Of a stretch of DNA of 33,653 bases, positions 496-15,155 are shown in pieces. The DNA lies in IMG/VR virus record IMGVR_UViG_3300046001_009045, positions 1 to 33,653 of that record. The stretch is one strand, 5' to 3'. The number at the start of each line of letters is the position of its first letter. The first letter of the stretch is position 1. The notes under the pieces were generated by a model that saw nothing but the letters and a program-made list of their open reading frames with translations, made no database searches and was not told where the DNA came from. A program made the position numbers and the translations under genes. Origin of the DNA: a virus.

Positions 496-2555
496 AGCAC
501 CACTATAAAACTATTGCAGTAGGTTTAATTCTATTAGTATCTTTAGTGGTACTAAGAGTTTGGGATCCGTACCCTATTGAAGTGCTCCGATTAAAGGGAC
601 TTGATTATTACCAACGTAAGCAAGAAAAGGTAAGAAGCGACAATATAGTTGTAGTAGAAATAGATGAATCCGCGCTTGAGAAGAACGGGCAATGGCCATG
701 GAATAGAGAAGTATTAGCGGAGGGAATAAAGAAGGCATTTGAAGGAGAGGCGGCGGTTGTAGTGTTACCTATTATATATGCTGAGCCAGATAGGCTAGGC
801 GGGGATCAAATATTTATTGACACATTACAAAAGGTCCCGGTCATAACATCTCAATCTGCTTCTACTAAAGGCAAGGGGGTACCCGTACCTAGAGGGGTAG
901 CTACTATTGGTAACGGCATTGAAGACTGGTTATATGATTACCCGGCAGCTATTGGACCAATTAAAGAAATTGGAGAGGCTTCAGCAGGGGTGGGTATGTT
1001 ATTAACTGCCCCGGAATTAGATGGCGTGGTAAGACGTTTACCTTTACTAATACAGATCAATAAAGAACAATACCCTACCCTACCTTTGGAAGTATTAAGA
1101 GTAGCAGGTAATGAGCCTAGCTATCAAGTAAAGATGTCTGAAGCTGGGGTACAAGCTGTAAGAGTGAAAGGCACCCCTGCTATCAAGACCGATGCTAATG
1201 CTAGAGTTTGGCTCAATTTTAAATATAAGTTTGATTCTATTCCTTACACTAAAGAGCAATGGGATGTAAAAGATAAGATAGTGGTAATAGCTTTAACAGC
1301 TGAAGGATTAGCTAATACCGTTGCAACCCCAGTAGGGGTTAACTACGGATATGAATTGAACTTACAAGCCTTACAAATGCTTATAGATGGCAATAGATTA
1401 GAGCGTCCAGCTGAGTTTGATCTATATGAAATGGCTATTGGTTTAGGTATCGGTATTATTCTAATAGCTTCCATAGCTTTCTTTAGTTATATCCCAAATG
1501 TTATAATATACCTAGTAGCTATTATATCTCCGGTATTAATCGGATTTAACATGTTTAACTCTAAAGGATATCTAGGGGACTATACTTGGATAGTATTAGC
1601 AGCTAGTATTACCTGGATGGGTGCATTATTTATGCGCTTTGTGCAAGAGTTTAAACTAAAGAATCAAATTAAAAAACAATTCGGCTCTTACGTAAACCCA
1701 ACTATAGTAGAACGTTTACAGAAAGATCCAAGCTTAATTAAGTTAGGAGGAGAGCGTAAAGAGCTATCTATTGTTATGACTGATTTGAGAGGTTTTACCA
1801 CTCTAGGGGAATCGTTTGGGGATGACGTAGAAGGTTTAACTCAGATTATGAACGATTATATGACTGCTCTAAGTATTCCAGTATTAAAAAACGATGGTAC
1901 CTTAATTAAGTTTATTGGAGATGCCTCGTTACATGTGCACGGTGCGCCTCTAGACGATCCTGACCATGCAGTCACTGCCGTGCTTACTGCTCAGCAAATG
2001 ATTAAAGCAATTGAAGGGTTTAATAAAGAGCTTACCGCTAAAGGACGTCCTCCAGTAGGTATGGGTGCAGGCGTTAATACCGGCGAGACTCTAATAGGTA
2101 ATATTGGTGCTAAGAGTAAATTCGGGTACGACGTGTTAGGTGACTCCGTCAGTACAGCAGCTCGTCTAGAAGGACAGACTAAGAGCTATGGTGTATTATG
2201 TATTATTGGACCAAAGACTAATGAGCTAGTTAAAGACAGAATCTTTACCCTAGAGCTAGATAATATAGCAGTTAAAGGCAAAACTGTTGGCTTACGTATC
2301 TATACACCTTTATTTGTATCTGATGCACATGCTGCAGCCGAATACTTGGCCGGCCAGGAATATCATAACGATATGTTAAAAGCCTATCGCGCTCAAAAGT
2401 TCGACCAGGCAATTGAGATGTGTCGAGAACTAGTAGGCGAGTTCGACGGACAAATGGATCACAGCTACGAGTTATGGATCGAACGCTGTGAAGATATGAA
2501 GAGTATAAAGCTCCCTAAAGATTGGGACGGGATCCATAGAGCTACTTCAAAGTAA
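492..2555 (+). CDS. CHASE2-domain class III adenylate/guanylate cyclase
   Basis: A membrane sensor cyclase of 687 aa that should convert ATP (or GTP) to a cyclic nucleotide in the cytoplasm. The order is canonical: TM1 at about 8-24, an extracytoplasmic CHASE2 sensor at about 30-305 (hallmarks VVVEIDESALEKNGQWPW, DGVVRRLPL, ATPVG), three TMs at about 314-334, 337-355 and 364-381, the catalytic domain at about 425-605, and the usual tail ending in a DWDG-type motif. Metal-binding Asp431 (MTDLRGFT) and Asp477 (KFIGDA) are present. Lys473 and Asp547 (YDVLGD) form the base-selecting pair expected for ATP. The transition-state Arg558 is kept, but the usual Asn is Ser554 (VSTAARLE), which could lower or change activity. 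The gene overlaps the preceding one by ATGA and the halogenase gene tail-to-tail by 14 bases. The family call is firm; product identity and the activating signal are inference. Such cyclases are common in bacteria and unexpected in a phage. Confidence 0.95.
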   Translation: MKHHYKTIAVGLILLVSLVVLRVWDPYPIEVLRLKGLDYYQRKQEKVRSDNIVVVEIDESALEKNGQWPWNREVLAEGIKKAFEGEAAVVVLPIIYAEPDRLGGDQIFIDTLQKVPVITSQSASTKGKGVPVPRGVATIGNGIEDWLYDYPAAIGPIKEIGEASAGVGMLLTAPELDGVVRRLPLLIQINKEQYPTLPLEVLRVAGNEPSYQVKMSEAGVQAVRVKGTPAIKTDANARVWLNFKYKFDSIPYTKEQWDVKDKIVVIALTAEGLANTVATPVGVNYGYELNLQALQMLIDGNRLERPAEFDLYEMAIGLGIGIILIASIAFFSYIPNVIIYLVAIISPVLIGFNMFNSKGYLGDYTWIVLAASITWMGALFMRFVQEFKLKNQIKKQFGSYVNPTIVERLQKDPSLIKLGGERKELSIVMTDLRGFTTLGESFGDDVEGLTQIMNDYMTALSIPVLKNDGTLIKFIGDASLHVHGAPLDDPDHAVTAVLTAQQMIKAIEGFNKELTAKGRPPVGMGAGVNTGETLIGNIGAKSKFGYDVLGDSVSTAARLEGQTKSYGVLCIIGPKTNELVKDRIFTLELDNIAVKGKTVGLRIYTPLFVSDAHAAAEYLAGQEYHNDMLKAYRAQKFDQAIEMCRELVGEFDGQMDHSYELWIERCEDMKSIKLPKDWDGIHRATSK

Positions 2556-4068
2556 CTGCGTTATGTACAACTGGGTAATGGTTTACTTTCCAATCTAAAG
2601 ATATAGTATTGGTAAATATATTTGTAGGAATAAGAGGGTCGTGTGCACCGTCTTTAAGTAATAGATTGTAATTATCTTCAGGGAGGGCAGCGAGTTCTTC
2701 TACTCTACGTGGGTAGAAACTCTTATTTAATATACCTTGACCTTCCATGAGCATTAACCAGCTCGGTAAACCGATATTAGTCATTGACGAGTTAAGGTAG
2801 CTATCTTCTTCTAAAGGTATATATTTGTTACGATGTATTACATCTGCTACAGTATCAACTATAGTGTTTTTAGTTCTAAACTCTTTCCAGAACGGAGAGT
2901 CGTTTCTGTTAACGTAGTAATGTAATTGAAGCCCGGCGAGTATATTATTATTAATTTTACTAAAATAGTAATTGAAGTTGTCTCTGGCTTCTTGACTGTC
3001 TTTATATAGTTCTGATAAATGACTAGTTAGTCTATCTATCATTATTACTTGTATCCATACAGAAGTAGCTTCAATTGGTTCAGTAAACCCAGCTGCAAGT
3101 CCGATAGCCATACAATTTTTAATACAAATTTTTTCATAATAACCAGCACTAAAGTTTAATATACGGGGCGAGGTTACTTCATGTCCTAATAGCGCCTCTA
3201 CTTCCTGCTTTGCTTGATCAGCGTTTATATAATCTGAATCATATACATAACCACAACCGTATCGATTACGGAGCGGTATCTTCCACATCCATCCATACTT
3301 TAACGCTATAGCATCTGTACAGTTATTAAAGTTATCTGGATCTATTTTAAGCTGAAACGGTAAAGCCTGTTTAACTGGTAAGTGCTTTGCATAACTAACC
3401 CAAGGAGATTTAAAATGCTTACCGATTATTAACCGTTTGAAACCGGTACAGTCAAATACAAAACTACAGGGTACTTGTTGCCCGCTTTCAAGACCTATAC
3501 TAGTTATATAGCCACGCTCATCATCAACAATAGAAGTAACCTTACCTTCAATTCTAGTCACCCCACGTTTAATGGCTTGCTCTCTTAAGAACTCAGCTAA
3601 TAAGTGTGCATCGAAGTGTAGAGCATAAGGTAACATCTTGTCGTGCTCTTTAGTAACGTTATTATAGGCAAAAGGGCTATTGCGTAAGTTATCATAAAAC
3701 TCGCAATTATTAATAAACGGTGTATTATTGTTTAAGTTCTGAAGTAACTTTTTAGACTGCGGGCCGCAACAGAAAGAATGAAAGTAATTTTTATCGTCTC
3801 CGTTCCAGTTTACAAAATTTATTCCTAATTTAAACGTGACGTTACATTTTTTATAAAACTCAGCAAACGGTATTTTTAGTACGTCAATTAAAAAATTCAC
3901 TAGAGCTGGAGTCGAGCCTTCACCTGCGCCTAATATACCTATCTCCTCGCTTTCTATAACTATTACTTTTTGAAGAGGCTGCGCTATTCTTCTTACATTT
4001 AACGCAGTTAGCCAGCCAGCAGCACCGCCGCCGACAATAACCAGGTCTTTACTCTTTTGTATCTCCAC
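2542..4068 (-). CDS. Flavin-dependent halogenase (tryptophan halogenase family)
   Basis: A 508-residue FAD enzyme that should use FADH2, O2 and halide to halogenate an electron-rich substrate. The dinucleotide fold GGGAAG is at 13-18 and GEGSTP at 49-54. The hypohalous-acid Lys is Lys80 (TFKLGINF). The family signature WxWxIP is at 260-265 (GWMWKIP). The catalytic Glu is most likely Glu333 (EPIEATS). All hallmarks are intact, and length fits the family (about 500-540). The start is GTG at 4068, since no ATG precedes the FAD fold, with TAAGTATT just upstream. Homologues are known in marine cyanophages, and one, VirX1, has been shown to halogenate small aromatics in vitro. The natural substrate is unknown, so calling it a tryptophan halogenase would go too far. 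Its neighbours are modification enzymes (2OG oxygenase, glycosyltransferase, carbamoyltransferase, sulfotransferase). Confidence 0.93.
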   Translation of the reverse strand: MEIQKSKDLVIVGGGAAGWLTALNVRRIAQPLQKVIVIESEEIGILGAGEGSTPALVNFLIDVLKIPFAEFYKKCNVTFKLGINFVNWNGDDKNYFHSFCCGPQSKKLLQNLNNNTPFINNCEFYDNLRNSPFAYNNVTKEHDKMLPYALHFDAHLLAEFLREQAIKRGVTRIEGKVTSIVDDERGYITSIGLESGQQVPCSFVFDCTGFKRLIIGKHFKSPWVSYAKHLPVKQALPFQLKIDPDNFNNCTDAIALKYGWMWKIPLRNRYGCGYVYDSDYINADQAKQEVEALLGHEVTSPRILNFSAGYYEKICIKNCMAIGLAAGFTEPIEATSVWIQVIMIDRLTSHLSELYKDSQEARDNFNYYFSKINNNILAGLQLHYYVNRNDSPFWKEFRTKNTIVDTVADVIHRNKYIPLEEDSYLNSSMTNIGLPSWLMLMEGQGILNKSFYPRRVEELAALPEDNYNLLLKDGAHDPLIPTNIFTNTISLDWKVNHYPVVHNAVTLK

Positions 4069-4071
4069 CTT

Positions 4072-4079
4072 AATACTTA
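4072..4079 (-). promoter_or_regulatory. TAAGTATT motif upstream of the halogenase gene
   Basis: Reads TAAGTATT on the minus strand. The TAAGTA core ends five bases before the GTG start, which itself has no strong Shine-Dalgarno. It is one of a set of such motifs in the window and could be a late-promoter -10 element or a translation signal. Confidence 0.4.
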
Positions 4080-4097
4080 AAGGAAGAGTCTATAAAC

Positions 4098-4535
4098 TCA
4101 ACCTTGATCGTAGTATTGTTTTGTCCCAGCGCAGCCGTATACAAAATAACCTTGGAGGTAATAAAGAGATGTAAACTCGTAACCTGCATTTGCAGCAGCT
4201 ACTTTAGCATCATGAACAATTTCGCTATTTGAAACTGCATTGCCGATATAGGTCCAGCCAAGGGTAATGCATTCGTTTTTGTTCAAAGGTTGGCCTTGGA
4301 GGGAATTAACTTCAGCGATTAAAGCTATTCTATCAGACTCTAATACTAGTGCCCCACCGTTACCTAGAATGTTAGTAACTTCTATTGCAATACCTTCAGC
4401 GCCAACTGTGCGGGTGAAGGTAACATTAAATGTGTCACCATCCGCTTCATCTGAGCGTAAGGAATTATATTGGAAAGTGGTTCCACCTTGATAGTGATAA
4501 GCTTCTAACAAGTTATGTGAGTGTGCAGGAATCAT
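4098..4535 (-). CDS. Unidentified protein, possibly virion-associated
   Basis: 145 residues, not recognised. It lacks a signal peptide or TM. It starts with a His-containing segment, then shows alternating polar/hydrophobic strands rich in Thr, Val and Gly, which suggests a beta-rich fold. A Tyr-rich C-terminus (about 123-142) carries a single Cys. The ATG at 4535 follows a doubled TAAGTAAGTA motif seven to eleven bases upstream. It lies between the halogenase gene and the divergent 2OG-oxygenase gene. That placement and the composition are compatible with a small structural or decoration protein, but nothing in the sequence proves this. Confidence 0.75.
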   Translation of the reverse strand: MIPAHSHNLLEAYHYQGGTTFQYNSLRSDEADGDTFNVTFTRTVGAEGIAIEVTNILGNGGALVLESDRIALIAEVNSLQGQPLNKNECITLGWTYIGNAVSNSEIVHDAKVAAANAGYEFTSLYYLQGYFVYGCAGTKQYYDQG

Positions 4536-4592: not shown

Positions 4593-5237
4593 ATGGAAAT
4601 AATAAATTACAAAGGTATTATCACTATAGACAATTTTATTACCCCAGAAGAAAATAAAGTTATTACATCCACGTTTGATCCAGTTGTAGCTGATTCTATG
4701 TCTTACTATTGGCGTTTACTTATTAATGGTAATCTAGTAACCCCTTTAAGCTTAACTAGTAACAAAGGATTCTATCAACAAATTTCTACTATACCAGTTG
4801 TGGCCGTTAACTTAGCATTGTCTGACATTATTACAAGAATTACAGATATAGTTTCTGCCCCTAAGCTTAAAGTAGAAGCTTGTGGTATTGAGAAGCATAT
4901 CGAACCAATTCCTTATTATTCAGATAGTGAATGGCCTGCGTTAAAAGAGAATCAGTTTTTAGGGGTACCACTCTCCGGTACAGACAATAGCGCGTATGTA
5001 AATTATAATGATAAGTGGGTATCTAACTATGTAGGCACTCGCCTGTATAGTAGTCATATTTTCTTAAACGATGACTTTGAAGGCGGTAATATTACTTTCC
5101 CGCAACACGAATTTGATGTAGCTTCAAAAGCTAATCGCTTAGTACTTTTCCCGAGCAACCATAACTACGTTCATGGAAGCCGTCCAATGAGCAGTTCAAG
5201 ACGTATGCTTACTACTTGGTTTGAAAAGTATGCTTGA
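4593..5237 (+). CDS. 2OG-Fe(II) oxygenase-like protein with a degenerate HxD motif
   Basis: 214 residues with the prolyl-4-hydroxylase-like double-stranded beta-helix of small phage oxygenases. The C-terminal core is clear: SSHIFLNDDFEGGNITF at 153-169, then LVLFPSNHNYVHG with distal iron-ligand candidate His194, and 2OG-binding Arg204 ten residues later. The expected proximal HxD, about 15 residues before FLND, is not seen. That position reads NYND (137-140), so Asp140 may remain while His appears replaced by Tyr138. If so, iron binding is altered or lost; the gene could also be a rapidly diverged active enzyme. It is a lone plus-strand gene, and its 3' end overlaps the glycosyltransferase gene antisense by 42 bases. 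Pairing of such oxygenases with halogenases is seen in marine T4-like phages. Substrate unknown; proline or sugar hydroxylation is conceivable. Confidence 0.82.
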   Translation: MEIINYKGIITIDNFITPEENKVITSTFDPVVADSMSYYWRLLINGNLVTPLSLTSNKGFYQQISTIPVVAVNLALSDIITRITDIVSAPKLKVEACGIEKHIEPIPYYSDSEWPALKENQFLGVPLSGTDNSAYVNYNDKWVSNYVGTRLYSSHIFLNDDFEGGNITFPQHEFDVASKANRLVLFPSNHNYVHGSRPMSSSRRMLTTWFEKYA

Positions 5238-6338
5238 GTAGTCAGGCTTTTCTCGTAACGCTAAATGCAAGTCGTCGGTGTTTTTAGTAAAGTGACCTAC
5301 AACAGTGTCACTCTTAACTACATAACCGTTTGTAATAAACTGCACCCCGCCTAGGGAAATTGTAGAGTTGATCCAAAACGATATTTGCTTTTCGGTAATA
5401 GTGGGGTAATAGCGTTCTATTTGTAAAGGGTTAGTGACAAACATTATACCGCCTGACACTAAGACTTCATACGCTTTTTTCATATAGACCGCTGGGTCGT
5501 ATAGTTTATACAAATCAGTTATCATTACAAAACCAGCCGAGTTAGGAGCTAGTTTAAATATGTCTTCATTAGCTGCAACACTATAACCTTTTATCTTGCT
5601 CCAATTAAGAGCCATCTTCATCAAGTACTCATCGTGCATCGTTACGCTGTAATCTATTATCCATTTACGTAGCACTGGATCTCCAGAAGTGTTCTCTGGG
5701 TGTAGGTAGTAAATGTATAATACTTCATTAATATGATGAATGTCACCATGAATCATACTCCGGCACATTAAGTCTCCATCATCGCAGGCTTTTAAAGTAA
5801 TATCATGTCCGCCTATACTTCGGTAAAAGTCTTTACGCCACACTCTAATATGATTTGGTGCCCACCACTGCCAACTAAAGTTGCCAGGGTATGGAGGATA
5901 AGCTATATTAATAGCACAATCTTTACCCTTGTAGTTAAAAGTACTGCACCTCCACCCGTAATCTGGGCCCCAGGTGTAGGGTTCGTTATTATATAATACT
6001 AAATTATTAGAATATATAAAATCTCCTTTATCTTTATTTTCTATTAACTTTTCAACACAATTAGGTAGTAGCTCGTCATCATGGTCGACTTCTGCAAGCA
6101 GTTCGCCTTTGCCTTGCATAAACCCAAAGTTCTTAAGGGCACCGATGTTAAAGTTAGAATCAGTGTAAGGTACTATTCTTATCCACTCTTGCTGTGGTAT
6201 GACGGATATATCCGCGTCATTGTTAGGTATAATAACCCATTCGAAACGTTTATCAGTTTGTGCTGCTATGGACTCATATAAACGAAGTAATTTCGTGGTT
6301 TTATGAGTAGGAGTTATTAAGGATACTATAGGTTCCAT
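5196..6338 (-). CDS. GT2-family glycosyltransferase with C-terminal extension
   Basis: A GT-A-fold glycosyltransferase. The N-terminus shows the family strand and turn (VSLITPTHKTTKLLRLYESI), followed by the sugar-nucleotide and metal-binding acidic motif EVDHDDELLP at about residues 83-92. Such enzymes move a sugar from a nucleotide donor to a glycan, lipid or protein. The open frame reaches a TTG at 6362, but family alignment favours ATG 6338 (MEPIVSL) or ATG 6347, which overlap the preceding gene; an AGGA lies about 11 bases before 6338. The last 150 residues are not typical GT2. The stretch DPAVYMKKAYEVLVSGGIMFV resembles the second half of a class I SAM methyltransferase, but no glycine-rich motif I is seen. 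Donor and acceptor are unknown. The neighbours suggest surface or virion decoration. Confidence 0.9.
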   Translation of the reverse strand: MEPIVSLITPTHKTTKLLRLYESIAAQTDKRFEWVIIPNNDADISVIPQQEWIRIVPYTDSNFNIGALKNFGFMQGKGELLAEVDHDDELLPNCVEKLIENKDKGDFIYSNNLVLYNNEPYTWGPDYGWRCSTFNYKGKDCAINIAYPPYPGNFSWQWWAPNHIRVWRKDFYRSIGGHDITLKACDDGDLMCRSMIHGDIHHINEVLYIYYLHPENTSGDPVLRKWIIDYSVTMHDEYLMKMALNWSKIKGYSVAANEDIFKLAPNSAGFVMITDLYKLYDPAVYMKKAYEVLVSGGIMFVTNPLQIERYYPTITEKQISFWINSTISLGGVQFITNGYVVKSDTVVGHFTKNTDDLHLALREKPDYSSILFKPSSKHTS

Positions 6339-6340
6339 TG

Positions 6341-6640
6341 TTACCATTTTCCTACTGGGCAATGAGCAGCTGCAATACGGACTTTAGTCTTCATAGCGCA
6401 TCCGCATTTACTACAAACGCATTCTCTTTTAATATCTTTGACATTAGCCTCCTTAAGAAAGAACTCACAATCCCAGCACAGATCCCAGCGAGTCTTAATA
6501 ACATCTTCTGGAGCTAATATCTGACCTCTAGCAACTGCTAATTGAAACATATCTTTAGCAGTACCAACTAAATTAAAAGCCATTTCCTTAAGAGATGGAA
6601 GCTCGAGAGAAGCAGAAAGCGGTTCCGTATTAGTGCTCAT
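6341..6640 (-). CDS. Cys-rich putative zinc-binding small protein
   Basis: 99 residues with seven cysteines in the C-terminal half: C55xxC58 (LCWDCEF), then C74xC76xxC79xC81 (CVCSKCGC) and C94 in a terminal HCPVGKW. The spacing suggests one or two zinc knuckles. The N-terminal 50 residues are helical and lack cysteine. I recognise the general look of a small phage protein with a terminal CPxGKW, but know of no assigned function. It lies between the carbamoyltransferase and GT2 genes and overlaps the latter's start region, so it probably belongs to the same transcript. A nucleic-acid-binding or adaptor role is only a guess. Confidence 0.85.
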   Translation of the reverse strand: MSTNTEPLSASLELPSLKEMAFNLVGTAKDMFQLAVARGQILAPEDVIKTRWDLCWDCEFFLKEANVKDIKRECVCSKCGCAMKTKVRIAAAHCPVGKW

Positions 6641-6643
6641 GCA

Positions 6644-8284
6644 TTAAAACTTTTTAACAAGTTCTAAACAGTAGTATTCGTCTGTAACTCTGTTTTTAGT
6701 AATAAAATGCTTCTCAATAACTGCTCCATCCAGTTGAGTGTTCTTTAATATATTGAACACGTCTTTTACGGTAGTAAGAATTGGCTTACCGTTAACATTA
6801 AACGACGTATTGAGTAGTACGCCTACCCCGGTTCGCACTTCCATCTCAGTTAACAGATCATATATATAAGGATTTTGTTCTCGAGTAACAGTCTGCACCC
6901 GTGCAGTATTATCAATATGAGTAATTGCTGGTAGCTTCTCTCTCCATTCTTCTCTTACCACTGGTGCAAATGTCATCCACCGAGACTCATCTTCCCATTC
7001 AAAGTATTTAGATACATCTTGAAGACGTACAATAGGTGCAAACGGACGATACCACTCTCTATTCTTGACTTTTTTATTTAAGATATCTTTCATATCTTTT
7101 ATCATCGGGTTACATATAATACTTCTATTGCCAAGACCTCTAGGGCCAACTTCTGATTGACCCCGAGCGATACCTATAATTTTCCCTGCTGCAATCTCTT
7201 TCACTACAGTATAAACATCAGTAGAGTTTACGTAGTAGTTACTCGTATTAATATATTCTGGTAGCATACTAATATCTAGCAATGGAAGACCGGCATAAGT
7301 CACATCGACTGGCTCAATTGGTTTAATATGATTTAATAGCATACCCACTGCAAGACCAGAGTCATTAGGTACCGGACCGACAAACACTCTCTTATCTAAC
7401 TCTTTTTTAATGCGTGTGTTAAGTAAGATATTTAAAGCGCAGCCACCAGTTAAGCAAATAGGTAAATGTTTGTATATATCTATGTTAACTTTAGTTGATA
7501 CTATATTTAAAAATACATTCTCCCAAGCGCACTGCAAAGTAGCAGCAACGTCGTAAGCAATTTGACCGCTTAATCTCTGGGTATTATTTAAAAACGGTAT
7601 ACCGGTAGCATCTTGTAATAACTGAACAATAGGGGTATGATTATAATGACCATGCATGTTACACGCCCATACAAACTTTTCAAACATAGGTAACCATTTT
7701 ATATTAACCGTACCATAAGAAACTAGTCCCATCACTTTACCTGGATAAACTAAATGTCCTTCTTGAAGAGCCTGAAGCTTTATATCTTCTAAGTAGTGCC
7801 CTATAATCATATAAGGAAAGCCAAAATCTAAATTAAAGTTAAACACCTGTTCAAGACCTCGACTCCGTTCTCCGTGATATACATTGAACGTACCGTCATT
7901 ACCACCGCCGTCAAAAGATATTATTAACGCTTCTTCGTACGGAGATTGATAAAAGCTACCGCCTGCGTGACTTAAATGATGCTTAGTTGTTATATAGTTA
8001 TCAGCTTCAATTAAACAATTAATATCATAAGGTACCCCGTTGATGTTAATCCGAGTATCGCCAATACTAATACAGTTTTCAAATTTAGAAAAACCAGTGT
8101 AGCTCTTTATGTAGTCAAGTACTTGTTCTAGTACGAAGAAAGGGTAACGCGGTACTTTGTATTGAGTTAGCCCGCTATTTTTATAGCCTAGAAAACGCTC
8201 TACTTCTAGTACTAGTAGTATTTTTCCTTTATGCTCGACTGCAAAAGTGCTATTGTGCGAACCAGTAAATGCGATGTTTGCCAT
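6644..8284 (-). CDS. O-carbamoyltransferase (NodU/CmcH/TobZ family)
   Basis: 546 residues, the usual length for enzymes that transfer a carbamoyl group from carbamoyl phosphate, via carbamoyl-adenylate, onto a sugar hydroxyl. The N-terminal Kae1-like domain has the metal-binding His pair in HHLSHAGGSFY (His102/103 and His106), Asp125 in ISFDGGGNDG and LTGGCALNILLN (279-290). The C-terminal YrdC-like region has GQSEVGPRGLGNRSI (375-389), REWYRPFAPIV (409-419) and LLNTSFNVNGKPI. All family landmarks are intact. Known members act on Nod factors and antibiotics; homologues occur in marine T4-like phages without a proven substrate. It is followed closely by the Cys-rich and GT2 genes and preceded by the sulfotransferase gene, all on one strand, which fits a shared role in modifying a glycan. 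Confidence 0.93.
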   Translation of the reverse strand: MANIAFTGSHNSTFAVEHKGKILLVLEVERFLGYKNSGLTQYKVPRYPFFVLEQVLDYIKSYTGFSKFENCISIGDTRININGVPYDINCLIEADNYITTKHHLSHAGGSFYQSPYEEALIISFDGGGNDGTFNVYHGERSRGLEQVFNFNLDFGFPYMIIGHYLEDIKLQALQEGHLVYPGKVMGLVSYGTVNIKWLPMFEKFVWACNMHGHYNHTPIVQLLQDATGIPFLNNTQRLSGQIAYDVAATLQCAWENVFLNIVSTKVNIDIYKHLPICLTGGCALNILLNTRIKKELDKRVFVGPVPNDSGLAVGMLLNHIKPIEPVDVTYAGLPLLDISMLPEYINTSNYYVNSTDVYTVVKEIAAGKIIGIARGQSEVGPRGLGNRSIICNPMIKDMKDILNKKVKNREWYRPFAPIVRLQDVSKYFEWEDESRWMTFAPVVREEWREKLPAITHIDNTARVQTVTREQNPYIYDLLTEMEVRTGVGVLLNTSFNVNGKPILTTVKDVFNILKNTQLDGAVIEKHFITKNRVTDEYYCLELVKKF

Positions 8285-8287
8285 AAA

Positions 8288-8971
8288 TTAATATCCAGCT
8301 ATTTTTAAACACTTATTATAAAGTTCGTAATCTTCTCTATTAAGTTCGATTAATTTTTGTCTCAAGTCAGACGGTATTTCATACTTTTCTTGATAGTTAG
8401 TTTTAGTAGGGTTCACATTGTGATTATTGTAAGTTTTAAAAACAGACATATTTGTGCCCATAATTGAATCATAACGCGCTATTTCTTTATTGAAATGCTC
8501 TGATATGCCTATAAACTTAAAATTATCTAGCGGTATGTTTAACTGATCCGACATAATATTGCTGCTGTATGGCCTTGTAGCAAAATATTCTAAACTTACT
8601 GAGTCATATTTTCTATGTACTTTTGCTATGTTACCATAACGACTTGGGTCTGTGAGTAGGTAATAGTAATAAGATGAAATTAACCTTTCAATAGGATCTC
8701 TTATCCATGTTATATATGCCGCGTCTGGGTAAATCGGTTTAAACTTATCCGCTTTGAAATGCCCCGTAATAAGCTTTGCAGTGGGGTTTGGCTTCAAGGG
8801 AACAACACCAGGCAACCCTGGTCGTTCATTAATAAACTTACGATCGGAATGATTATTCCAACCATGAGATTCAACCACTATAACTTCTTCTTGTTTTAGC
8901 TTTAACTCTGGTATTAATAAGTTTTTAAACGTAGTACCAGCAGTCTTAGGTATATGTACAAAGATAAGCAC
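8288..8971 (-). CDS. PAPS-dependent sulfotransferase
   Basis: 227 residues of the Sulfotransfer_2 type, which moves sulfate from 3'-phosphoadenosine-5'-phosphosulfate to a carbohydrate hydroxyl. The 5'-phosphosulfate loop is HIPKTAGTTF (residues 6-15) with Lys9. The 3'-phosphate motif is WIRDPIERLISSYYYYL (89-105) with Arg91 and a Ser near 99/100. A GHF at 70-72 supplies the likely catalytic His71. The start is GTG at 8971, with an AGGT about 12 bases upstream; no in-frame ATG precedes the PAPS loop. It lies three bases before the carbamoyltransferase gene on the same strand. A possible PAPS-making enzyme is at 14385-15155. The acceptor is unknown; a glycan made by the local glycosyltransferases is an attractive but unproven candidate. 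Confidence 0.9.
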   Translation of the reverse strand: MLIFVHIPKTAGTTFKNLLIPELKLKQEEVIVVESHGWNNHSDRKFINERPGLPGVVPLKPNPTAKLITGHFKADKFKPIYPDAAYITWIRDPIERLISSYYYYLLTDPSRYGNIAKVHRKYDSVSLEYFATRPYSSNIMSDQLNIPLDNFKFIGISEHFNKEIARYDSIMGTNMSVFKTYNNHNVNPTKTNYQEKYEIPSDLRQKLIELNREDYELYNKCLKIAGY

Positions 8972-9005: not shown

Positions 9006-9335
9006 TTACGAGCCGAGTTTAAACTGCTGACCGCCCGCAGCACTTACTGCAACATATTGCGAGAAAGGAGCAATTACGGTTGTATATACAAATCCAGGAA
9101 CTGGGGTTCCACCTGCAGAAGCAAAGCCGGTATAAGTAATAACAGAACCAGTAGTTGCAATAACTACCCCGCCGCCGCCAACAACATACCCAGGGCTACC
9201 TTCAGTGGTGTAAAACGCACCAGATGCACCGCCTGTAGCAGTGATCGTTATGGGTGTATTATCACCGCAAAGGTTATAAGTCGCGGAGAGTGCTCCGCCA
9301 GCGCCATAACGAAATTGATATCTTGAGCATGCCAT
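9006..9335 (-). CDS. Unidentified Gly/Thr/Ala-rich small protein, possibly virion-associated
   Basis: 109 residues, not recognised. Composition is heavy in Gly, Ala, Thr and Val with very few charged residues. Repeated short beta-like stretches (ITITATGGASG, VVGGGGVVIATTG) resemble small beta-rich virion or fibre-tip proteins. Two Cys are in the first 25 residues. There is no signal peptide. The ATG at 9335 is preceded by TAAGTATA and, further up, ATAAATA. It is the first gene upstream of the sulfotransferase-to-GT2 run. The virion assignment rests only on composition and the late-type upstream motif. Confidence 0.75.
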   Translation of the reverse strand: MACSRYQFRYGAGGALSATYNLCGDNTPITITATGGASGAFYTTEGSPGYVVGGGGVVIATTGSVITYTGFASAGGTPVPGFVYTTVIAPFSQYVAVSAAGGQQFKLGS

Positions 9336-9362: not shown

Positions 9363-9641
9363 TTATTTATTGAAAGATTGCCCACCGACTCTCCATACTG
9401 CTGAACCTATTCCGTTCTGGGAGTTTAGCTCAGAGTTTGGATGGTAGCGTTTAATGGTAGCGCTAATATTTTCGAAGATCTTCTCATTGTTACCCCATAT
9501 TTCTAGACCTTGATTGCGCTTTGGTTTAATAGCTTCATTGTAATCAACATGAAGAAGCATATGTTCCTTACCAGAAGCCTTATAAGCAACCTTGCATTTA
9601 TGGCCATTCAATATCTTTACTAAATCCGGATGTGGTTTCAT
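9363..9641 (-). CDS. Unidentified small protein
   Basis: 92 residues, not recognised. It is basic and rich in Asn, Lys and His, with no TM, signal or cysteine cluster (one Cys at 16). It starts at ATG 9641, with AGTAAAT about 12 bases upstream. It is the last gene of the run that includes the AbrB-like, QueD-like and HAD genes. The first residues (MKPHPDLVKILNG) resemble in style the start of the basic protein at 11767-12069 (RIHPELLKILNS), so the two may share an N-terminal element. That is a visual impression only. Confidence 0.7.
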   Translation of the reverse strand: MKPHPDLVKILNGHKCKVAYKASGKEHMLLHVDYNEAIKPKRNQGLEIWGNNEKIFENISATIKRYHPNSELNSQNGIGSAVWRVGGQSFNK

Positions 9642-9904: not shown

Positions 9905-10468
9905 TTAACCGAGTAGTGTACTATAAAACGCTTTAAACTCTGGAGACCACTCTTCAGTAATACTGTTAGAAAAGTTTATAGAGCTAAGATTGGCTTTAGG
10001 AAACTGACACACTCCTTCATCACACATCTTATACTGTGCGTATCCGGTATCAGTTTCGTGTACAATAGCTGAGAACATTTCTGCTCCTGTATTAACAATT
10101 CCTTCTCTTTTAAGTTGTGCAAGAGCAGCTCTACCGTATGTAAAGAACATCTTAGCTTGCATCTCAGCAGTAGATGAAAATGGTGCTATGATCCAACGAG
10201 CATTAGTCTTTGTAATATAATCAACCTCGCCTGCTCGTTCTTTACAGTCCCAAACCATATGAGCATGATCGAATGCATCTACAAAAGGATGGAAATACTT
10301 TTTAACAACCCCGAAGTCAAGTACCATTTGTGCTTGATCAGGGGTGTTACCAATAAACAATAGCTCTAACTTATAGCTATGTCCATGAATGTTTTGAGAG
10401 CAGCGCCTAGTGTAAGCGTTAACCACTCTGTGACTCATTTCGTATTTGAATAGTTTTCTAATGATCAT
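9905..10468 (-). CDS. queD: QueD / 6-pyruvoyl-tetrahydropterin synthase family protein
   Basis: 187 residues of the T-fold PTPS family. QueD turns 7,8-dihydroneopterin triphosphate into 6-carboxytetrahydropterin on the route to preQ0. Visible landmarks are zinc ligands His13 (YEMSHRV), His28 and His30 (NIHGH), nucleophile Cys23 (RRCSQNIHGH), the AFDHAHMV segment with Asp67/His68/His70, and pterin-anchoring Glu139 (HETDTGYAQY). It is longer than typical QueD (about 120-150) because of inserts around 75-95. Phage queD genes usually serve 7-deazaguanine DNA modification or feed host tRNA queuosine. No queC, queE, folE or DNA-inserting transglycosylase is in this window, so which applies cannot be seen. 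It follows the HAD phosphatase gene by 12 bases. Confidence 0.88.
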   Translation of the reverse strand: MIIRKLFKYEMSHRVVNAYTRRCSQNIHGHSYKLELLFIGNTPDQAQMVLDFGVVKKYFHPFVDAFDHAHMVWDCKERAGEVDYITKTNARWIIAPFSSTAEMQAKMFFTYGRAALAQLKREGIVNTGAEMFSAIVHETDTGYAQYKMCDEGVCQFPKANLSSINFSNSITEEWSPEFKAFYSTLLG

Positions 10469-10480: not shown

Positions 10481-11023
10481 CTAGGGTTTAATACCTTCAC
10501 TACCTTTAGAAGTGGTATTGGTAATTTGGTCTACAATTCTAGATATTCTAGATATATCAGCATGAGTAAAACCTTCCTCGATGTGACCCCAAAACGGTAC
10601 AACTTTAATATACTGCACTGGTCCAAGCTTTCTAAGGAGAGCAATTTTTTCGTAATTGTCATGGTAGTCTAGATCGTCAATAAGATAGTTCTGACCTTGA
10701 GGTATATCAAGATCAATCTTAGTTTTACGCCACTCTCTTACGTGAATACGAGAGTAAATACGCTCTGTCGAAAAACCAAAACCGAGCGCTTTATTCATTG
10801 CAAATGCATAACCCTGAGTAGCCCGGGTAAGAGCGTAAACTTCTCCAATAGCTCTCAGTTTAAACAAGAGATCTATAGCGCCCGGGCGCAAGGCGACTTT
10901 ATATAGTTCATCTGGGTCATGAGTCATTACATCTACTGTTTCAATCTCAGGATTATGAGATTCCATATCAGCATGCATTAGAGTCTCATCTATATCGACA
11001 AATATATTTTTACGTGTGCTCAT
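10481..11023 (-). CDS. HAD-superfamily phosphatase, FCP1/NIF-like
   Basis: 180 residues with all four HAD motifs. Motif I is VDIDETL with nucleophile Asp10 and Asp12, motif II is ALTRAT with Thr66, motif III is a Lys near 100-102 (WRKTK), and motif IV is LIDDLDY with Asp116/Asp117. DxDxT, LRPG at 46-49 and IDDLDYH match the FCP1/NLI-interacting-factor branch, which dephosphorylates proteins or small molecules. The ATG at 11023 overlaps the stop of a 53-residue gene (ATGA). The neighbouring QueD-like gene suggests a nucleotide or pterin substrate, but that is only context. The C-terminal 20 residues are Ser/Thr/Gly-rich and probably disordered. Confidence 0.85.
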   Translation of the reverse strand: MSTRKNIFVDIDETLMHADMESHNPEIETVDVMTHDPDELYKVALRPGAIDLLFKLRAIGEVYALTRATQGYAFAMNKALGFGFSTERIYSRIHVREWRKTKIDLDIPQGQNYLIDDLDYHDNYEKIALLRKLGPVQYIKVVPFWGHIEEGFTHADISRISRIVDQITNTTSKGSEGIKP

Positions 11024-11735: not shown

Positions 11736-11766
11736 AGGCAGAGTATAGTGCCCGTTACGTAGCTAG

Positions 11767-12069
11767 TCAAGCTTGTTCTGCAGCTTTACTCTCGTCTCTA
11801 GCAATCTTGCGTTCATAATTGTGCTCTGAAGATTGAGCAAAGTAATGAGCAGTACTACGGTCAGGACGGCCTGCGCACATTTTAGCATGGCGTTCTTTTT
11901 CCTTATCTGTTGCGCTAGCTTTAAGCTTATGAGGACGACCTGGAAGTTTGTTCAATCCGCGGAGATTCTTAATACTCTCAACAACTCTCTTGACCTTTTT
12001 ACGGTAGGTAGAAGAATTGAGGATCTTTAGAAGCTCAGGATGAATACGTGTTTTATCGTTATTAGACAT
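11767..12069 (-). CDS. Unidentified basic helical protein
   Basis: 100 residues, not recognised. It is strongly basic (Lys/Arg-rich at 20-60) and predicted mostly helical, with no TM or signal and one Cys. GRPHK and AGRPDR could act as AT-hook-like minor-groove contacts (GRP core), so DNA binding is possible. The first 20 residues resemble those of the 92-residue protein at 9363-9641 (HPxLLKILN pattern). It follows the 145-residue gene at 12087-12524 by 17 bases. Confidence 0.75.
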   Translation of the reverse strand: MSNNDKTRIHPELLKILNSSTYRKKVKRVVESIKNLRGLNKLPGRPHKLKASATDKEKERHAKMCAGRPDRSTAHYFAQSSEHNYERKIARDESKAAEQA

Positions 12070-12086
12070 AGCGAGTGTATTATATA

Positions 12087-12524
12087 TTAGTTCTCAACAT
12101 CATCAACAGGTTTTTTATTACGAAGTTTGTCCATTTTTAACGGATCTAGTTTATGAGTAAGAAAGTATCCGAATATATCTGCGTTGCTTTGAGAGACTGG
12201 CATTAAAGCGCCGAACACCTTACCTTCTTTGTCGATGTATTCTTCTTCATAACCTTCACTTAACATTGCCCGGGATAGACCGATATTATACGTAGTAGCA
12301 CTAGCTGATTTCTTTTTAAAATCTGGAAATACTATGACTACACCGAGTTCTGATACAATATTTGCCGAGTTGGCTGCTTTCTTCCCGGCTTTATCAGTAG
12401 CTTCATTATAATCAACATCAATATCAATTTCAAATTTATAGTTCTTAGCAGCCGCAATAATTAACTCTACGTAAGTTTTAACAGCTGTATCAGTTACATC
12501 ATCAAACTTTAAATTGGATTCCAT
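12087..12524 (-). CDS. Unidentified acidic protein
   Basis: 145 residues, not recognised. The N-terminal half is acidic with an alternating strand FEIDIDVDYNEA. The middle has a beta stretch (LGVVIVFPDF), and the C-terminus is charged and probably disordered (LRNKKPVDDVEN). There is no membrane segment or motif I can name. It is the first gene of a leftward run and lies divergent from the glycine-zipper gene across a 104-base intergenic region with TAAGTATT facing each way. Confidence 0.78.
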   Translation of the reverse strand: MESNLKFDDVTDTAVKTYVELIIAAAKNYKFEIDIDVDYNEATDKAGKKAANSANIVSELGVVIVFPDFKKKSASATTYNIGLSRAMLSEGYEEEYIDKEGKVFGALMPVSQSNADIFGYFLTHKLDPLKMDKLRNKKPVDDVEN

Positions 12525-12549
12525 ATGCGTATTATTATCGGACGTTAAA

Positions 12550-12557
12550 AATACTTA
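12550..12557 (-). promoter_or_regulatory. TAAGTATT motif, leftward
   Basis: Minus-strand TAAGTATT 25 bases before the ATG at 12524, in the divergent intergenic region 12525-12628. This spacing leaves room for a short leader, so a promoter role is more natural here than a translation role. Confidence 0.45.
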
Positions 12558-12607
12558 TCAAGCTTTAAAGCTAAAAACATTACAACAAATTACTTGCTTA
12601 ATTTAGC

Positions 12608-12615
12608 TAAGTATT
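12608..12615 (+). promoter_or_regulatory. TAAGTATT motif, rightward
   Basis: Plus-strand TAAGTATT 13 bases before the ATG at 12629 in the same divergent region. With the terminator at 13060-13085 it defines a one-gene transcription unit. Confidence 0.45.
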
Positions 12616-12628
12616 AATAATACGTTAT

Positions 12629-13051
12629 ATGAAAAACAAACTAGCTAGTCTGTTAATTGCGTTAGCTTTAATTGTTCCTGTTAAAGCACAACAATCAAAT
12701 AATAATACTGCTGGTGGTGCAATACTCGGTGGTATCGTCGGTGCAGTAATCGGCAATCAAATGCATCATAACGGAGCTGCTGGTGCTGTAATCGGTATTG
12801 TTACTGGCGCTATTGCTGGTAATGCTATTGATAATGCAAGACAACCGCAGTCTGTCATAATTTACCGGCAACCGGCGCCGCCTGCTAACGTTATCTATGT
12901 TGAAAACATTCGTCCAGATTGGACACCAGTCATTGTTCAATACAGGGTTTGGGACCGTGGTCACTACCGCGTCATACATGATCGTGGTTATAGAGACCGT
13001 CACGGCCGAATTTACTCTAGACCAAGTTATAGACCGGGCTCTAGACATTAA
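12629..13051 (+). CDS. Periplasmic glycine-zipper protein
   Basis: 140 residues. A signal peptide is clear (MKNK, hydrophobic 5-18, likely cleavage VKA|QQ after 20). It is followed by a glycine-zipper 2TM-like segment at about 28-66, with small residues every four positions (AGGAILGGIVGAVIGN, GAAGAVIGIVTGAIAGN). The C-terminal 55 residues are rich in Arg, His and Tyr (YRVWDRGHYRVI, RDRHGRIYSR). Glycine-zipper proteins insert into or associate with membranes; bacterial relatives are envelope proteins of unclear function. In a phage this could alter the host envelope, for example in superinfection exclusion or lysis timing, but no homologue with proven function is recognised. It stands alone on the plus strand with its own upstream motif and terminator, as morons often do. 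Confidence 0.85.
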   Translation: MKNKLASLLIALALIVPVKAQQSNNNTAGGAILGGIVGAVIGNQMHHNGAAGAVIGIVTGAIAGNAIDNARQPQSVIIYRQPAPPANVIYVENIRPDWTPVIVQYRVWDRGHYRVIHDRGYRDRHGRIYSRPSYRPGSRH

Positions 13052-13059
13052 GTAACAAA

Positions 13060-13085
13060 AAACCCGGCACGAAAATGCCGGGTTT
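13060..13085. terminator. Bidirectional rho-independent terminator
   Basis: A perfect 10-bp stem (AAACCCGGCA / TGCCGGGTTT) with a 6-base loop. Rightward it is followed by TTTGTTTTTG, and leftward the stem runs into TTTTTTG. It sits between the converging glycine-zipper (ends 13051) and lipoprotein (ends 13107) genes, so it should stop transcription from both. Confidence 0.92.
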
Positions 13086-13106
13086 GTTTTTGTCTAGAGA
13101 CTAGGT

Positions 13107-13400
13107 TTACTTTGCTGTAGCAGGTGCAATGATATCGGATGTGCCTTTGATAAGGCCACCAGCGAGATCAAGGCCGCCGCCAACTACTTTACCAGCACCG
13201 CTTACAACGGTACCGATAGCATTGCTTGCAACGCCGAGGGTCTTAGATGCATCAGATGCACCGTTACCGACAACATTACCTACGCCGCTAATAGCAGATT
13301 GACCAATACCTTTAGCGCCATTATATCCAGCGTCTACAGTACCGCAACCAGTTAAGGAAAGAGCAGCTAGAGCTGCAACTAATGATAGGGTGTATTTCAT
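13107..13400 (-). CDS. Small outer-membrane lipoprotein
   Basis: 97 residues with a classic lipoprotein signal: MKYT, hydrophobic core, lipobox LTGC at 16-19. Gly at +2 predicts outer-membrane sorting in Gram-negative hosts. The mature 79 residues are Gly/Ala/Ser/Val-rich, with an amphipathic repeat (VGNVVGNGAS, GTVVSGAGKVVGGG) that recalls glycine-zipper helices, and no Cys besides the anchor. It is small enough for a superinfection-blocking lipoprotein or an outer spanin. However, it lacks the proline-rich character of many o-spanins, and no inner-membrane spanin partner is adjacent. It faces the periplasmic glycine-zipper gene across a shared terminator, and TAAGTATT lies just before its start. 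Confidence 0.88.
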   Translation of the reverse strand: MKYTLSLVAALAALSLTGCGTVDAGYNGAKGIGQSAISGVGNVVGNGASDASKTLGVASNAIGTVVSGAGKVVGGGLDLAGGLIKGTSDIIAPATAK

Positions 13401-13405
13401 ACCCT

Positions 13406-13413
13406 AATACTTA
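13406..13413 (-). promoter_or_regulatory. TAAGTATT motif overlapping the preceding stop codon
   Basis: Minus-strand TAAGTATT. Its first three bases are the TAA stop of the glycosyltransferase gene at 13411. The core ends seven bases before the lipoprotein ATG at 13400; an AGGG lies almost against the ATG. Confidence 0.4.
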
Positions 13414-14136
13414 TTTAAACGCAGAGTGTTTCTTATGAAACTTCTCGTATACTGCACTATTACTCTTGGATCCGTTTCCACCTGGTTTCACTGTGTAAAC
13501 AAACGTCGCATTAGGATTTTTTCTAATCTTGTAGCCAGCTTCACTAATCCGGGCCCAATAATCCCAGTCTTCTATAGAGTTTAACTCCTGATCAAAGAAA
13601 CCAACATCAAGACACTTAACTTTATGTACTACCCCGGATACAAAGATGCAGTTACCTTCGAGTAGTTTTTTAATACCAGGGAACTCTGGGTAGTCAGCAA
13701 TACCATAAGGAACCGCTTTAGTGCCATCAACAAACCGGTGATCCGGTGCAGCGTATACCATATCTGCTTCGTTAAAGACTGACCCGAGTAGCGTTAATGC
13801 TTTCACTTGTTGTTCGAGATAATCTGGTGCCCATACATCATCACTATCACAATACGCGACTAGATCATAACTAGGGCCGGTAGGATCTCTTACTATCATA
13901 CTAAGAGCGCAATTGCGAGCTGTACTCACACCGCCATTAGGTTTGTAACAAAAAGTTACTTTTGACATTAACTCTGGGGTCCATTGAACTTCATGTGCAC
14001 GGTTACCTTTAGTAGAACCATCATCTATTAAATAGAGGTGCCAGTTAGTATAAGTCTGGTTTAAAATGGATTGAACCGACGTTACAAGGAGATCTCTCTC
14101 GTTGTAGTATGGCATTACGATTGCGACTTTATTCAC
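13411..14136 (-). CDS. GT2-family glycosyltransferase
   Basis: About 241 residues, a compact canonical GT-A enzyme. VAIVMPYYNERDLLVTSVQS opens the nucleotide-binding fold, then LIDDGS, and the metal-binding YCDSDDVWAPDYL at about residues 100-112. Near the C-terminus SIEDWDYWARI matches the ED-type catalytic-base and acceptor loop of the family. The frame reaches a TTG at 14151, but GTG 14136 (VNKVAIVMPYYN) fits the family start and overlaps the upstream stop (GTGAATAA). ATG 14115 would delete part of the first strand. It should transfer a sugar from a nucleotide donor; donor and acceptor are unknown. It lies downstream of the APS-kinase-like fusion gene and upstream of the lipoprotein gene on the same strand. 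Confidence 0.9.
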   Translation of the reverse strand: MNKVAIVMPYYNERDLLVTSVQSILNQTYTNWHLYLIDDGSTKGNRAHEVQWTPELMSKVTFCYKPNGGVSTARNCALSMIVRDPTGPSYDLVAYCDSDDVWAPDYLEQQVKALTLLGSVFNEADMVYAAPDHRFVDGTKAVPYGIADYPEFPGIKKLLEGNCIFVSGVVHKVKCLDVGFFDQELNSIEDWDYWARISEAGYKIRKNPNATFVYTVKPGGNGSKSNSAVYEKFHKKHSAFK

Positions 14137-14383
14137 TTGGAGCGTGTTCAATTAAAGCTTTACTAAGTGTGAAGCAACCCTCTCTATCCAGTACAATTTG
14201 ATCTCCATAAGGCTTTCCGTGTCTGAGTATTTGCCATATATACCGTAGTTTTTGCTTCCATGATAAGGTGCTGTCCTGTCCATAACCTCGTTCCCATATA
14301 GATAGATACAGACTATCTTCATCTGCTTCTACCATAAGACCTTCAGAGTGACAAGTGCATTTAATAAAGACTGTTTTGTTCAT
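14129..14383 (-). CDS. Unidentified small protein
   Basis: 84 residues from ATG 14383, which follows the upstream stop by one base (TAACATG). The open frame extends further to 14440, but that would overlap the fusion gene by 56 bases. Three Cys are present (KCTCHSEG near the start, GCF near 70). The mid-part, YLSIWERGYG then a Trp-rich helix, suggests a compact mixed fold. I recognise the general style of a small phage protein but no function. It is coupled to the glycosyltransferase gene by an eight-base overlap. Confidence 0.72.
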   Translation of the reverse strand: MNKTVFIKCTCHSEGLMVEADEDSLYLSIWERGYGQDSTLSWKQKLRYIWQILRHGKPYGDQIVLDREGCFTLSKALIEHAPSE

Positions 14384-14384
14384 G

Positions 14385-15155
14385 TTAGATTTTGAGTTCG
14401 TTGCGTATTTTTGTAGCAGAGATATCTCGGGTACTTTCATCTAGTGTAATTTGCTCGATTTTATACCCTACGTCTCTTCCGTAAAATATGTTGGTAATGT
14501 TAGGCACTCTAATTATATTATATTTACCTTCATAATCAATCATTCCTTTACGAATATTCTGTTCTACTTCCTCATACGAAAAAGGATTCTTTTCATCAGT
14601 ACCTTGAGTGTCTCTAATAGCTATACAAGCCTGGCCAACCCGGTTAATAGCCTCTACAATAAGCCTCTTGTGTCCATCATGGAAAGGTTGATAACGACCG
14701 AGCATATAAGCGGTAGGGAACTTAGAGTTAAATGTCGGTATAAGAGTCTTCTTGATTAAGTTAGCCCAGTAAAGTGGAGAGCCTTCATTAGTTACTTCTA
14801 TATTAAATTGCTCTGGAGCAGTAAACATCTTAGTGGTATCTGCAAAGTCTCTACATGGTGTTCTGTTAATCCAAATTACAAAAGCATCTTTTACACCGAA
14901 TGCGTTTCTAGATTCGGGAGTAGGGCATATAAAATCGGCAATAGCGTATTGTTTGGTGCGTACTACAATATTACAAAGCACTCCCATTCGTCGAGCATGC
15001 TCGATTCTATCCTCAGGCTTGAAGCCAAGGTCTTTGTTCACTTCTTTACGGATTTCGTCCGCATTGAAATGAACCGCGTTTAACATTTTGGCCAACTCTA
15101 TAGCAAGAGTTGTTTTACCGGCGCCCGGTAAACCCATAATGAGAATTTTCTTCAT
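14385..15155 (-). CDS. APS-kinase-like / nucleotidyltransferase fusion
   Basis: 256 residues in two domains. The N-terminal P-loop kinase (1-about 140) has Walker A GLPGAGKTT (8-16), and NADEIRKEVNKDLGFKPEDR at 31-50 closely follows the adenylylsulfate-kinase signature (DGDN..R..LN.DLGF..EDR). Such kinases make PAPS from APS. The C-terminal domain (about 148-256) is an HxGH nucleotidyltransferase, with GRYQPFHDGH at 153-162 and ISATKIR at 245-251, closest in style to NadM/NadR adenylyltransferases. Kinase-first order is the reverse of NadR and the same as in animal PAPS synthases, although those carry a true ATP sulfurylase. PAPS would serve the sulfotransferase at 8288-8971. NAD-salvage or another nucleotide role is equally open. 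ATG 15155 has TAAGTT eight bases upstream. Confidence 0.85.
   Translation of the reverse strand: MKKILIMGLPGAGKTTLAIELAKMLNAVHFNADEIRKEVNKDLGFKPEDRIEHARRMGVLCNIVVRTKQYAIADFICPTPESRNAFGVKDAFVIWINRTPCRDFADTTKMFTAPEQFNIEVTNEGSPLYWANLIKKTLIPTFNSKFPTAYMLGRYQPFHDGHKRLIVEAINRVGQACIAIRDTQGTDEKNPFSYEEVEQNIRKGMIDYEGKYNIIRVPNITNIFYGRDVGYKIEQITLDESTRDISATKIRNELKI

Follow-up and report, generated by a model that had tools for sequence, protein, structure and literature searches.

We begin with the gene content of IMGVR_UViG_3300046001_009045, a virus entry of IMG/VR, 33,653 bases long, that represents a genome fragment and is taken here in its entirety as the window. It carries a set of tailoring enzymes that occupy the intervals (slots) between small conserved genes, together with a gene for a two-domain kinase. 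The features are listed below, with the Pfam E-value where a figure is given.

492–2555, plus strand: CHASE2-adenylate/guanylate cyclase (Pfam), the convergent boundary of the tailoring region
2542–4068, minus strand: flavin-dependent halogenase, tryptophan-halogenase family (Trp_halogenase, 4.9e-101), slot 3
4098–4535, minus strand: s4098, conserved small protein preceding slot 3, no Pfam family
4593–5237, plus strand: 2-oxoglutarate (2OG)-Fe(II) oxygenase-like (2.3e-8), slot 2, opposite strand to the other enzymes
5196–6362, minus strand: family-2 glycosyltransferase (Glycos_transf_2, 1.9e-12) with an unassigned C-terminal part, slot 2
6341–6640, minus strand: cys6341, Cys-rich, DUF6171-like conserved frame gene (phrog_13558)
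6644–8284, minus strand: NodU/TobZ-type O-carbamoyltransferase (Carbam_trans_C, 1.4e-61; Carbam_trans_N, 2.9e-21), slot 1
8288–8971, minus strand: sulfotransferase (Sulfotransfer_2, 7.1e-13), slot 1
9006–9335, minus strand: s9006, conserved small protein preceding slot 1 (by synteny)
9363–9641, minus strand: o9363, conserved small frame gene (by synteny)
9905–10468, minus strand: PTPS/QueD-like (4.9e-19)
10481–11023, minus strand: HAD (NIF-like) phosphatase, conserved frame gene (1.2e-7)
13411–14151, minus strand: family-2 glycosyltransferase (Glycos_transf_2, 1.4e-21), adjoins the kinase
14385–15155, minus strand: APS-kinase-fold kinase fused to an NMNAT-like nucleotidyltransferase, two domains (APS, adenosine 5'-phosphosulfate; NMNAT, nicotinamide mononucleotide (NMN) adenylyltransferase)
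20552–21424, plus strand: open reading frame (ORF) proposed earlier as a third glycosyltransferase, no library match
22519–33653, minus strand: four long ORFs, putatively fibre-like, upstream of the tailoring genes and on the same strand

The halogenase, the carbamoyltransferase, the sulfotransferase and the two family-2 glycosyltransferases had been named in an earlier reading of the letters alone (the sequence-only reading), and their Pfam matches and catalytic motifs bear this out. The halogenase contains GGGAAG, WMWKIP, FKLG and EPIE; the profile together with the flavin adenine dinucleotide, WxWxIP, Lys and Glu motifs places it, with a predicted activity, in the flavin-dependent tryptophan-halogenase family, and its nearest solved structures are tryptophan 5-/6-halogenases (E 1e-63 to 1e-59). 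The carbamoyltransferase, with two domains, HHLSHA (HHxxHA) and LNTSFN, is a predicted NodU/TobZ O-carbamoyltransferase; the nearest solved structures are the novobiocin, GdmN and TobZ carbamoyltransferases, and it is 45% identical to a protein of Xanthomonas phage XacN1. In the records G014 and G015 the carbamoyltransferase frame has a single internal TAA in each. The sulfotransferase has PKTAGTT and RDPIERLISSY, and its profile match with 5'- and 3'-phosphate binding motifs makes it a putative sulfotransferase dependent on 3'-phosphoadenosine 5'-phosphosulfate (PAPS); its match in the PDB is a weak one (heparan sulfate 2-O-sulfotransferase, E 0.005), and tblastn of GenBank phages at E 0.01 returns nothing.

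Relatives of the glycosyltransferase at 5196–6362 are found at 57% and 42%. Its gene overlaps that of cys6341 by 22 bp, and gaps of 3 bp separate cys6341 from the carbamoyltransferase and this from the sulfotransferase, which agrees with the same-strand run described earlier around 6347–8971. The homologue of cys6341 at locus L092 matches PF19668 at 4.4e-7. The oxygenase stands in part: the Pfam match is there, but it is confined to the C-terminal part (residues 145–210, profile 23–97 of 98), the protein is without a clear HxD and the gene lies on the opposite strand. The proposed third glycosyltransferase at 20552 has no profile support, with no match in Pfam, NCBIfam, PHROG or PDB-sequence searches.

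A profile of s4098 retrieves 12 viral contigs that fall into 6 phage types (that of the window, and B to F); since the types were found through s4098, its presence in all six is a selection effect. The gene order HAD-o9363-s9006-DUF6171-s4098-cyclase is preserved in 6/6 types. Slot 1 (s9006 to DUF6171) holds the sulfotransferase and the carbamoyltransferase in the window, a sulfotransferase in F, and is empty in B, C, D and E. Slot 2 (DUF6171 to s4098) holds the glycosyltransferase and the 2OG gene in the window, a glycosyltransferase in F, and is empty in B to E. Slot 3 (s4098 to cyclase) holds a halogenase in the window, B, D and F; in C it has a 2OG-like gene that falls short of the Pfam cut-off (E 0.001), and in E nothing. 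The frame of small genes is fixed and the tailoring enzymes are exchanged between them. In the gene comparisons this suggests an interchangeable decoration kit, not one fixed pathway. The QueD-like gene lies between HAD and o9363 in the window type alone, the relatives lacking it at that position; this interval appears as a further exchange site. The small protein s4098 itself was considered as the halogenase substrate and set aside: its AlphaFold2 model is too poor to search (predicted local distance difference test, pLDDT, 60), and types C and E keep s4098 without having a halogenase.

The gene arrangement is not an assembly accident, since two further IMG/VR contigs are 99.9% identical to the window across 9.0 and 15.4 kb. 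One of them supplies a leftward extension of ~7.4 kb beyond the window, where CsgF-like, CsgG-like, curlin-repeat-like and FecR-like ORFs (named by position and by resemblance to the annotated block of Methylophilales phage Melnitz) adjoin the CHASE2 cyclase. The window cyclase shares 47% identity with its counterpart in Melnitz and 40% with the one in Pelagibacter phage HTVC008M, two phages of the Kyanoviridae, and the TerL, tail sheath and tube of HTVC008M have matches in a 140-kb relative of the window phage (G026). On these grounds the window phage is most likely a T4-like myophage, related to the pelagimyophages and to Melnitz. GenBank phages contain no DNA-level relatives of the window, and a 32-base pattern from its right end matched no viral contig. 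The left extension also holds a cyclic-nucleotide-binding protein (Pfam cNMP_binding, 3.4e-18), which with the nearby cyclase forms a candidate phage-encoded cyclic-nucleotide signalling pair (window 492–2555; L004:8532–12493); the 140-kb relative has a comparable ORF at 45.4 kb, close to its curli block.

In this 140-kb relative the tailoring genes are scattered over distances of up to about 50 kb. The kinase (79% identical to that of the window) and two glycosyltransferases lie at 43–45 kb beside DUF6445, family-2 glycosyltransferase and UDP-galactopyranose-mutase-like genes, and the carbamoyltransferase lies at 57 kb. At 87–95 kb the order is collagen + Peptidase_S74 protein, 342-residue ORF, DUF6171, another collagen + Peptidase_S74 protein, 2OG/DUF6445 gene, halogenase; the halogenase adjoins the 2OG/DUF6445 gene, with one collagen + Peptidase_S74 protein and DUF6171 beside them and another such protein 3 kb off. 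We did not find s4098 in this relative. Because of the scattering, the tailoring enzymes need not travel together. The layout is also the best positional evidence tying halogenase and oxygenase to tail fibres. Homologues of the fibre-like ORFs of the window are found at 72–87 kb of the same relative. The long ORF at 26446–29919 has no match among GenBank phages. Two of the window ORFs (22519–26436 and 30169–32337) contain Pro-Thr repeat tracts, which may be targets of O-modification, perhaps in the manner of mucin or collagen.

A single co-inherited decoration pathway, as the sequence-only reading suggested, is not supported by these genomes: slots gain and lose enzymes in relatives, the genes lie far apart in the 140-kb relative, and the independent variation of neighbours that had been named beforehand as speaking against such a pathway is found in slots 1–3 of the window lineage.

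We turn to the kinase. The product of 14385–15155, described earlier as APS-kinase-like, does have the APS-kinase fold (residues 1–141), but is a two-domain protein whose C-terminal ~110 residues (about 147–256) match NMN adenylyltransferases. In a predicted model (pLDDT 89.7), the whole kinase domain superposes on APS kinase with a VIA-align Z of 19.6 and a root-mean-square deviation (rmsd) of 1.8 over 140 residues, compared with a Z of 16.5 when superposed on gluconate kinase and of 13.8 on shikimate kinase. The contacts reported between M. tuberculosis CysC and APS include D480, R483, F492, R497 and F576 (PMC4373884). Transferred to the phage kinase through HMMER alignments, four of them (D33, R36, F45, R50) are each kept in 61/61 aligned members and the fifth, F104, in 59/61. 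The LDGD motif does not keep both of its Asp residues, the first being Asn31 in 61/61, and because of this replacement we name the protein APS-kinase-like and not APS kinase.

In the C-terminal half, GRYQPxHxGH, YGRD and ISATxxR are invariant or almost so among aligned members; HxGH, YGRD and SATxxR stand where an ATP sulfurylase would have its HxxH, GRD and SGTxxR loops, but HxGH and S-x-T-xx-R also occur in NMNATs. A GRFQPxHxGH-like motif together with ISxTxxR makes this half a putative NMN adenylyltransferase, with NMN as a predicted substrate. An ATP sulfurylase, for which a QxRN loop is described (PMC3779200), does not fit: the phage protein has GRYQ instead of the QxRN (RNP) loop, with the Q and R contacts missing, and no ATP sulfurylase appears among 25 PDB sequence matches up to E 10. 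A structural match to PAPSS1 was discarded as well, since VIA-align paired 250 residues at an rmsd of 17, too poor to count. Like PAPSS1 and the APS kinases, the phage protein has the APS-kinase fold, the APS-contact residues and the kinase-then-nucleotidyltransferase order; unlike PAPSS1, it has the short NMNAT-like C-terminal half, no QxRN sulfate loop, and Asn for the first LDGD Asp. Relatives of this fusion are encoded in at least 595 of 600 pattern-matched viral stretches, from which 80 loci were retained. A role like that of Campylobacter Cj1415, an APS-kinase homologue leading to a phosphoramidate donor, would be a further candidate.

The position of the phage kinase relative to sulfotransferases was examined in 26 kinase-selected records, namely two short ones and otherwise mostly the largest of the 80 loci, with a sulfotransferase called by Sulfotransfer_2 or _3 at E<=0.001. 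One is present in 9/26 records, and in 8/9 the nearest lies at most 5 kb from the kinase (expected 2.7, p 0.00015), where the 5-kb limit was set after the distances were seen and the records are not independent; a threshold-free test on mean log distance gives p 0.003. If two weak matches and a single short contig are dropped, 6/6 are within 5 kb (expected 1.8). The carbamoyltransferase, as a control, is within 5 kb in 2/9 (expected 1.5), with a mean log distance somewhat low (p 0.04). Among 63 non-redundant kinases, the immediate same-strand upstream neighbours include Sulfotransfer_3 (6/60) and Sulfotransfer_1 (6/60), two sets that may overlap; downstream (61 scanned), no sulfotransferase occurs among the 25 of 32 families listed. 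The link between kinase and sulfotransferase is real, though not exclusive. At one locus (L096, in G030 at 17.3–26.6 kb) four or five ORFs, with five Sulfotransfer_2 matches between them, lie just upstream of the kinase-NMNAT gene.

In other phages the distance between kinase and sulfotransferase is unusually short, which makes the supply of a sulfate donor plausible but unproven. Of the earlier proposal that the two genes are connected, the proximity holds and a second lineage groups them as well; the PAPS supply is not supported by a C-terminal half that is NMNAT-like and lacks the QxRN loop. We offer only tentatively the idea of a compact two-step donor synthase, in which the nucleotidyltransferase half would make an adenylyl compound and the APS-kinase-like half would add a 3'-phosphate, giving PAPS or a 3'-phosphoadenosyl analogue that would feed phage sulfotransferase-fold enzymes decorating virion fibres or a phage-built glycan.

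The next question is whether the enzymes recur as a set. In 50 records (24 halogenase-selected and the 26 kinase-selected, from about 160 loci), Sulfotransfer_2 is found in 13 (8/24 and 5/26 respectively), the carbamoyltransferase in 19 and the halogenase in 27 (24/24 by selection, and 3/26). All three occur together in 6/50 records, of which G014 and G015 are apparently one phage, and G045 becomes a seventh once Sulfotransfer_3 is counted. At 44 non-redundant halogenase loci the kinase is found in 15, a sulfotransferase in 11 (called with lineage-made profiles) and both in 10. Markers of one WhiB-gene lineage are carried by 20/44 of these loci; this lineage accounts for 13/15 loci with the kinase and for every one of the 11 with a sulfotransferase, so that the co-occurrence mirrors few lineages. 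In these WhiB-bearing phages, which probably infect Actinobacteria, the sulfotransferase, an Asp/Asn-hydroxylase-like gene, the kinase and the halogenase lie close together. The WhiB-bearing and the curli-bearing lineages have the enzyme set in common, which hints at a functional link among the enzymes. The co-occurrence across phage genomes that had been proposed earlier as a check is present in the WhiB-bearing lineage and weak over the records at large. A small membrane-like protein of the window (19898–20182) has homologues 52–64% identical in the same lineage, where they sit directly after the halogenase (L033, L034, L038 and others).

Parts of this inventory are familiar. VirX1 (PDB 6qgm), which we take to be a cyanophage halogenase, belongs to the same family as the window halogenase (E 1.3e-45), although the latter scores nearer to the tryptophan 5-/6-halogenases. 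HTVC008M resembles the window in having curli genes followed by the cyclase, and its genome also encodes a halogenase, a carbamoyltransferase and several oxygenases of the 2OG/phytanoyl type; it differs in that the halogenase lies between terminase genes and the carbamoyltransferase before curli, and in that no sulfotransferase or kinase-NMNAT is annotated within the two stretches examined (1–46 kb and 46–83 kb). Melnitz, for which a curli operon is described (PMC9004378), shares the curli-FecR-cyclase block, but no halogenase, sulfotransferase or carbamoyltransferase is annotated across the 32 kb examined. T4-like cyanophages such as P-SSM2 and Syn10 are reported to carry PrnA halogenase, 2OG oxygenases and a carbamoyltransferase sporadically (PMC3037559), and one account of the cyanophage halogenase calls its proposed role speculative (PMC2984593); their halogenase identity is <40%, and in the stretches examined the sulfotransferase, the kinase fusion and the slot frame are not annotated. 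Sulfotransferases are mentioned in OM43 phages, with a function called unclear, and in S-SRM01 (PMC10580990). Pelagimyophages are described as having a hypervariable cluster for host recognition, which includes glycosyltransferases and tail fibres and lies between VrlC and the neck gene gp14 (PMC7029224); VrlC and neck proteins have no match in the 140-kb relative, and we saw neither gene in the window. Pelagimyophage/methylophage-like phages were known before to have halogenase, carbamoyltransferase and 2OG genes. The slot architecture is new, and so is the kinase-NMNAT fusion keeping company with sulfotransferases, the freshest lead; the literature searched, mostly outside subscription journals, gave no account of the fusion or of slot exchange of these enzymes.

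Taken as a whole, the gene identities, the slot variation and the kinase fold are observed. The reading that we prefer, at a probability of roughly 0.55, is that of a modular region of rapidly exchanged tailoring genes in a T4-type phage of the pelagimyophage/methylophage kind, with long fibre-like genes on one side and the curli/cyclase block on the other; the products would act on virion fibres, on a surface glycan or on both. The enzymes would act late in infection on phage-made surfaces, with fibre polypeptides as targets of the halogenase and the oxygenase. A glycan, either on the fibres or on the host surface, would be assembled and capped by the glycosyltransferases together with the carbamoyltransferase and the sulfotransferase, and for the last of these the kinase-NMNAT would supply a donor of the 3'-phosphoadenosine type, PAPS or an analogue. 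Enzyme swaps would change the display of the virion or the infected cell. Several points weigh against this reading. The enzymes have no known substrate; the sole HxD/E of the window oxygenase is HIE at 102; the window halogenase lies about 18 kb from the fibre-like ORFs, and collagen- or PT-type fibre repeats occur at only 5/44 halogenase loci. Co-occurrence is weak, with the carbamoyltransferase in 10/24 halogenase-selected and 9/26 kinase-selected records, and the recurrence of the enzyme set rests on few lineages.

The genes could instead be accessory (moron) genes that have nothing to do with one another, that chance has brought together in a hypervariable region and that each act on host metabolism or surface, with no shared target. 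Presence and absence are independent in the six relatives, the genes are scattered in the 140-kb relative, kinases of Stenotrophomonas and Xanthomonas phages include two neighbourhoods without an annotated sulfotransferase, and the carbamoyltransferase does not cluster with the kinase at 5 kb; all of this would be expected of morons. Chance gathering does not account for the closeness of sulfotransferase and kinase, for the second lineage with halogenase, kinase and sulfotransferase, or for the tight spacing of glycosyltransferase, DUF6171, carbamoyltransferase and sulfotransferase in the window, and we regard this explanation as possible but doubtful.

Superinfection exclusion, in which the glycosyltransferases, carbamoyltransferase and sulfotransferase alter host lipopolysaccharide or capsule and block adsorption of competing phages, appears to us unlikely. 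NodU-type carbamoyltransferases act on sugars, which counts in its favor, as does the presence, close to the kinase of the 140-kb relative, of glycosyltransferase and UDP-galactopyranose-mutase-like genes, and the same role has been proposed for pelagimyophage glycosyltransferases (PMC7029224). It leaves the halogenase and oxygenase beside collagen-like fibre genes unexplained, and a similar set occurs in the WhiB-bearing phages, whose probable hosts have a different envelope. A small halogenated, sulfated metabolite or signal, made as in bacterial natural-product gene clusters, is very improbable: the closest solved structures, tryptophan halogenases and the TobZ, GdmN and novobiocin carbamoyltransferases, do point that way as a family-level resemblance, but no scaffold-building family (nonribosomal peptide synthetase or polyketide synthase) is found among the scanned window ORFs and each enzyme is dispensable in relatives.

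It is usual to catalogue the halogenases, carbamoyltransferases, 2OG oxygenases and sulfotransferases of phages singly, as auxiliary metabolic genes of unknown purpose. The slots, and the halogenase and oxygenase beside collagen-like fibre genes, offer a testable alternative, namely the modification of phage surfaces. With the kinase-NMNAT near sulfotransferases, the question of PAPS or an analogue becomes one that could be answered with one purified protein.

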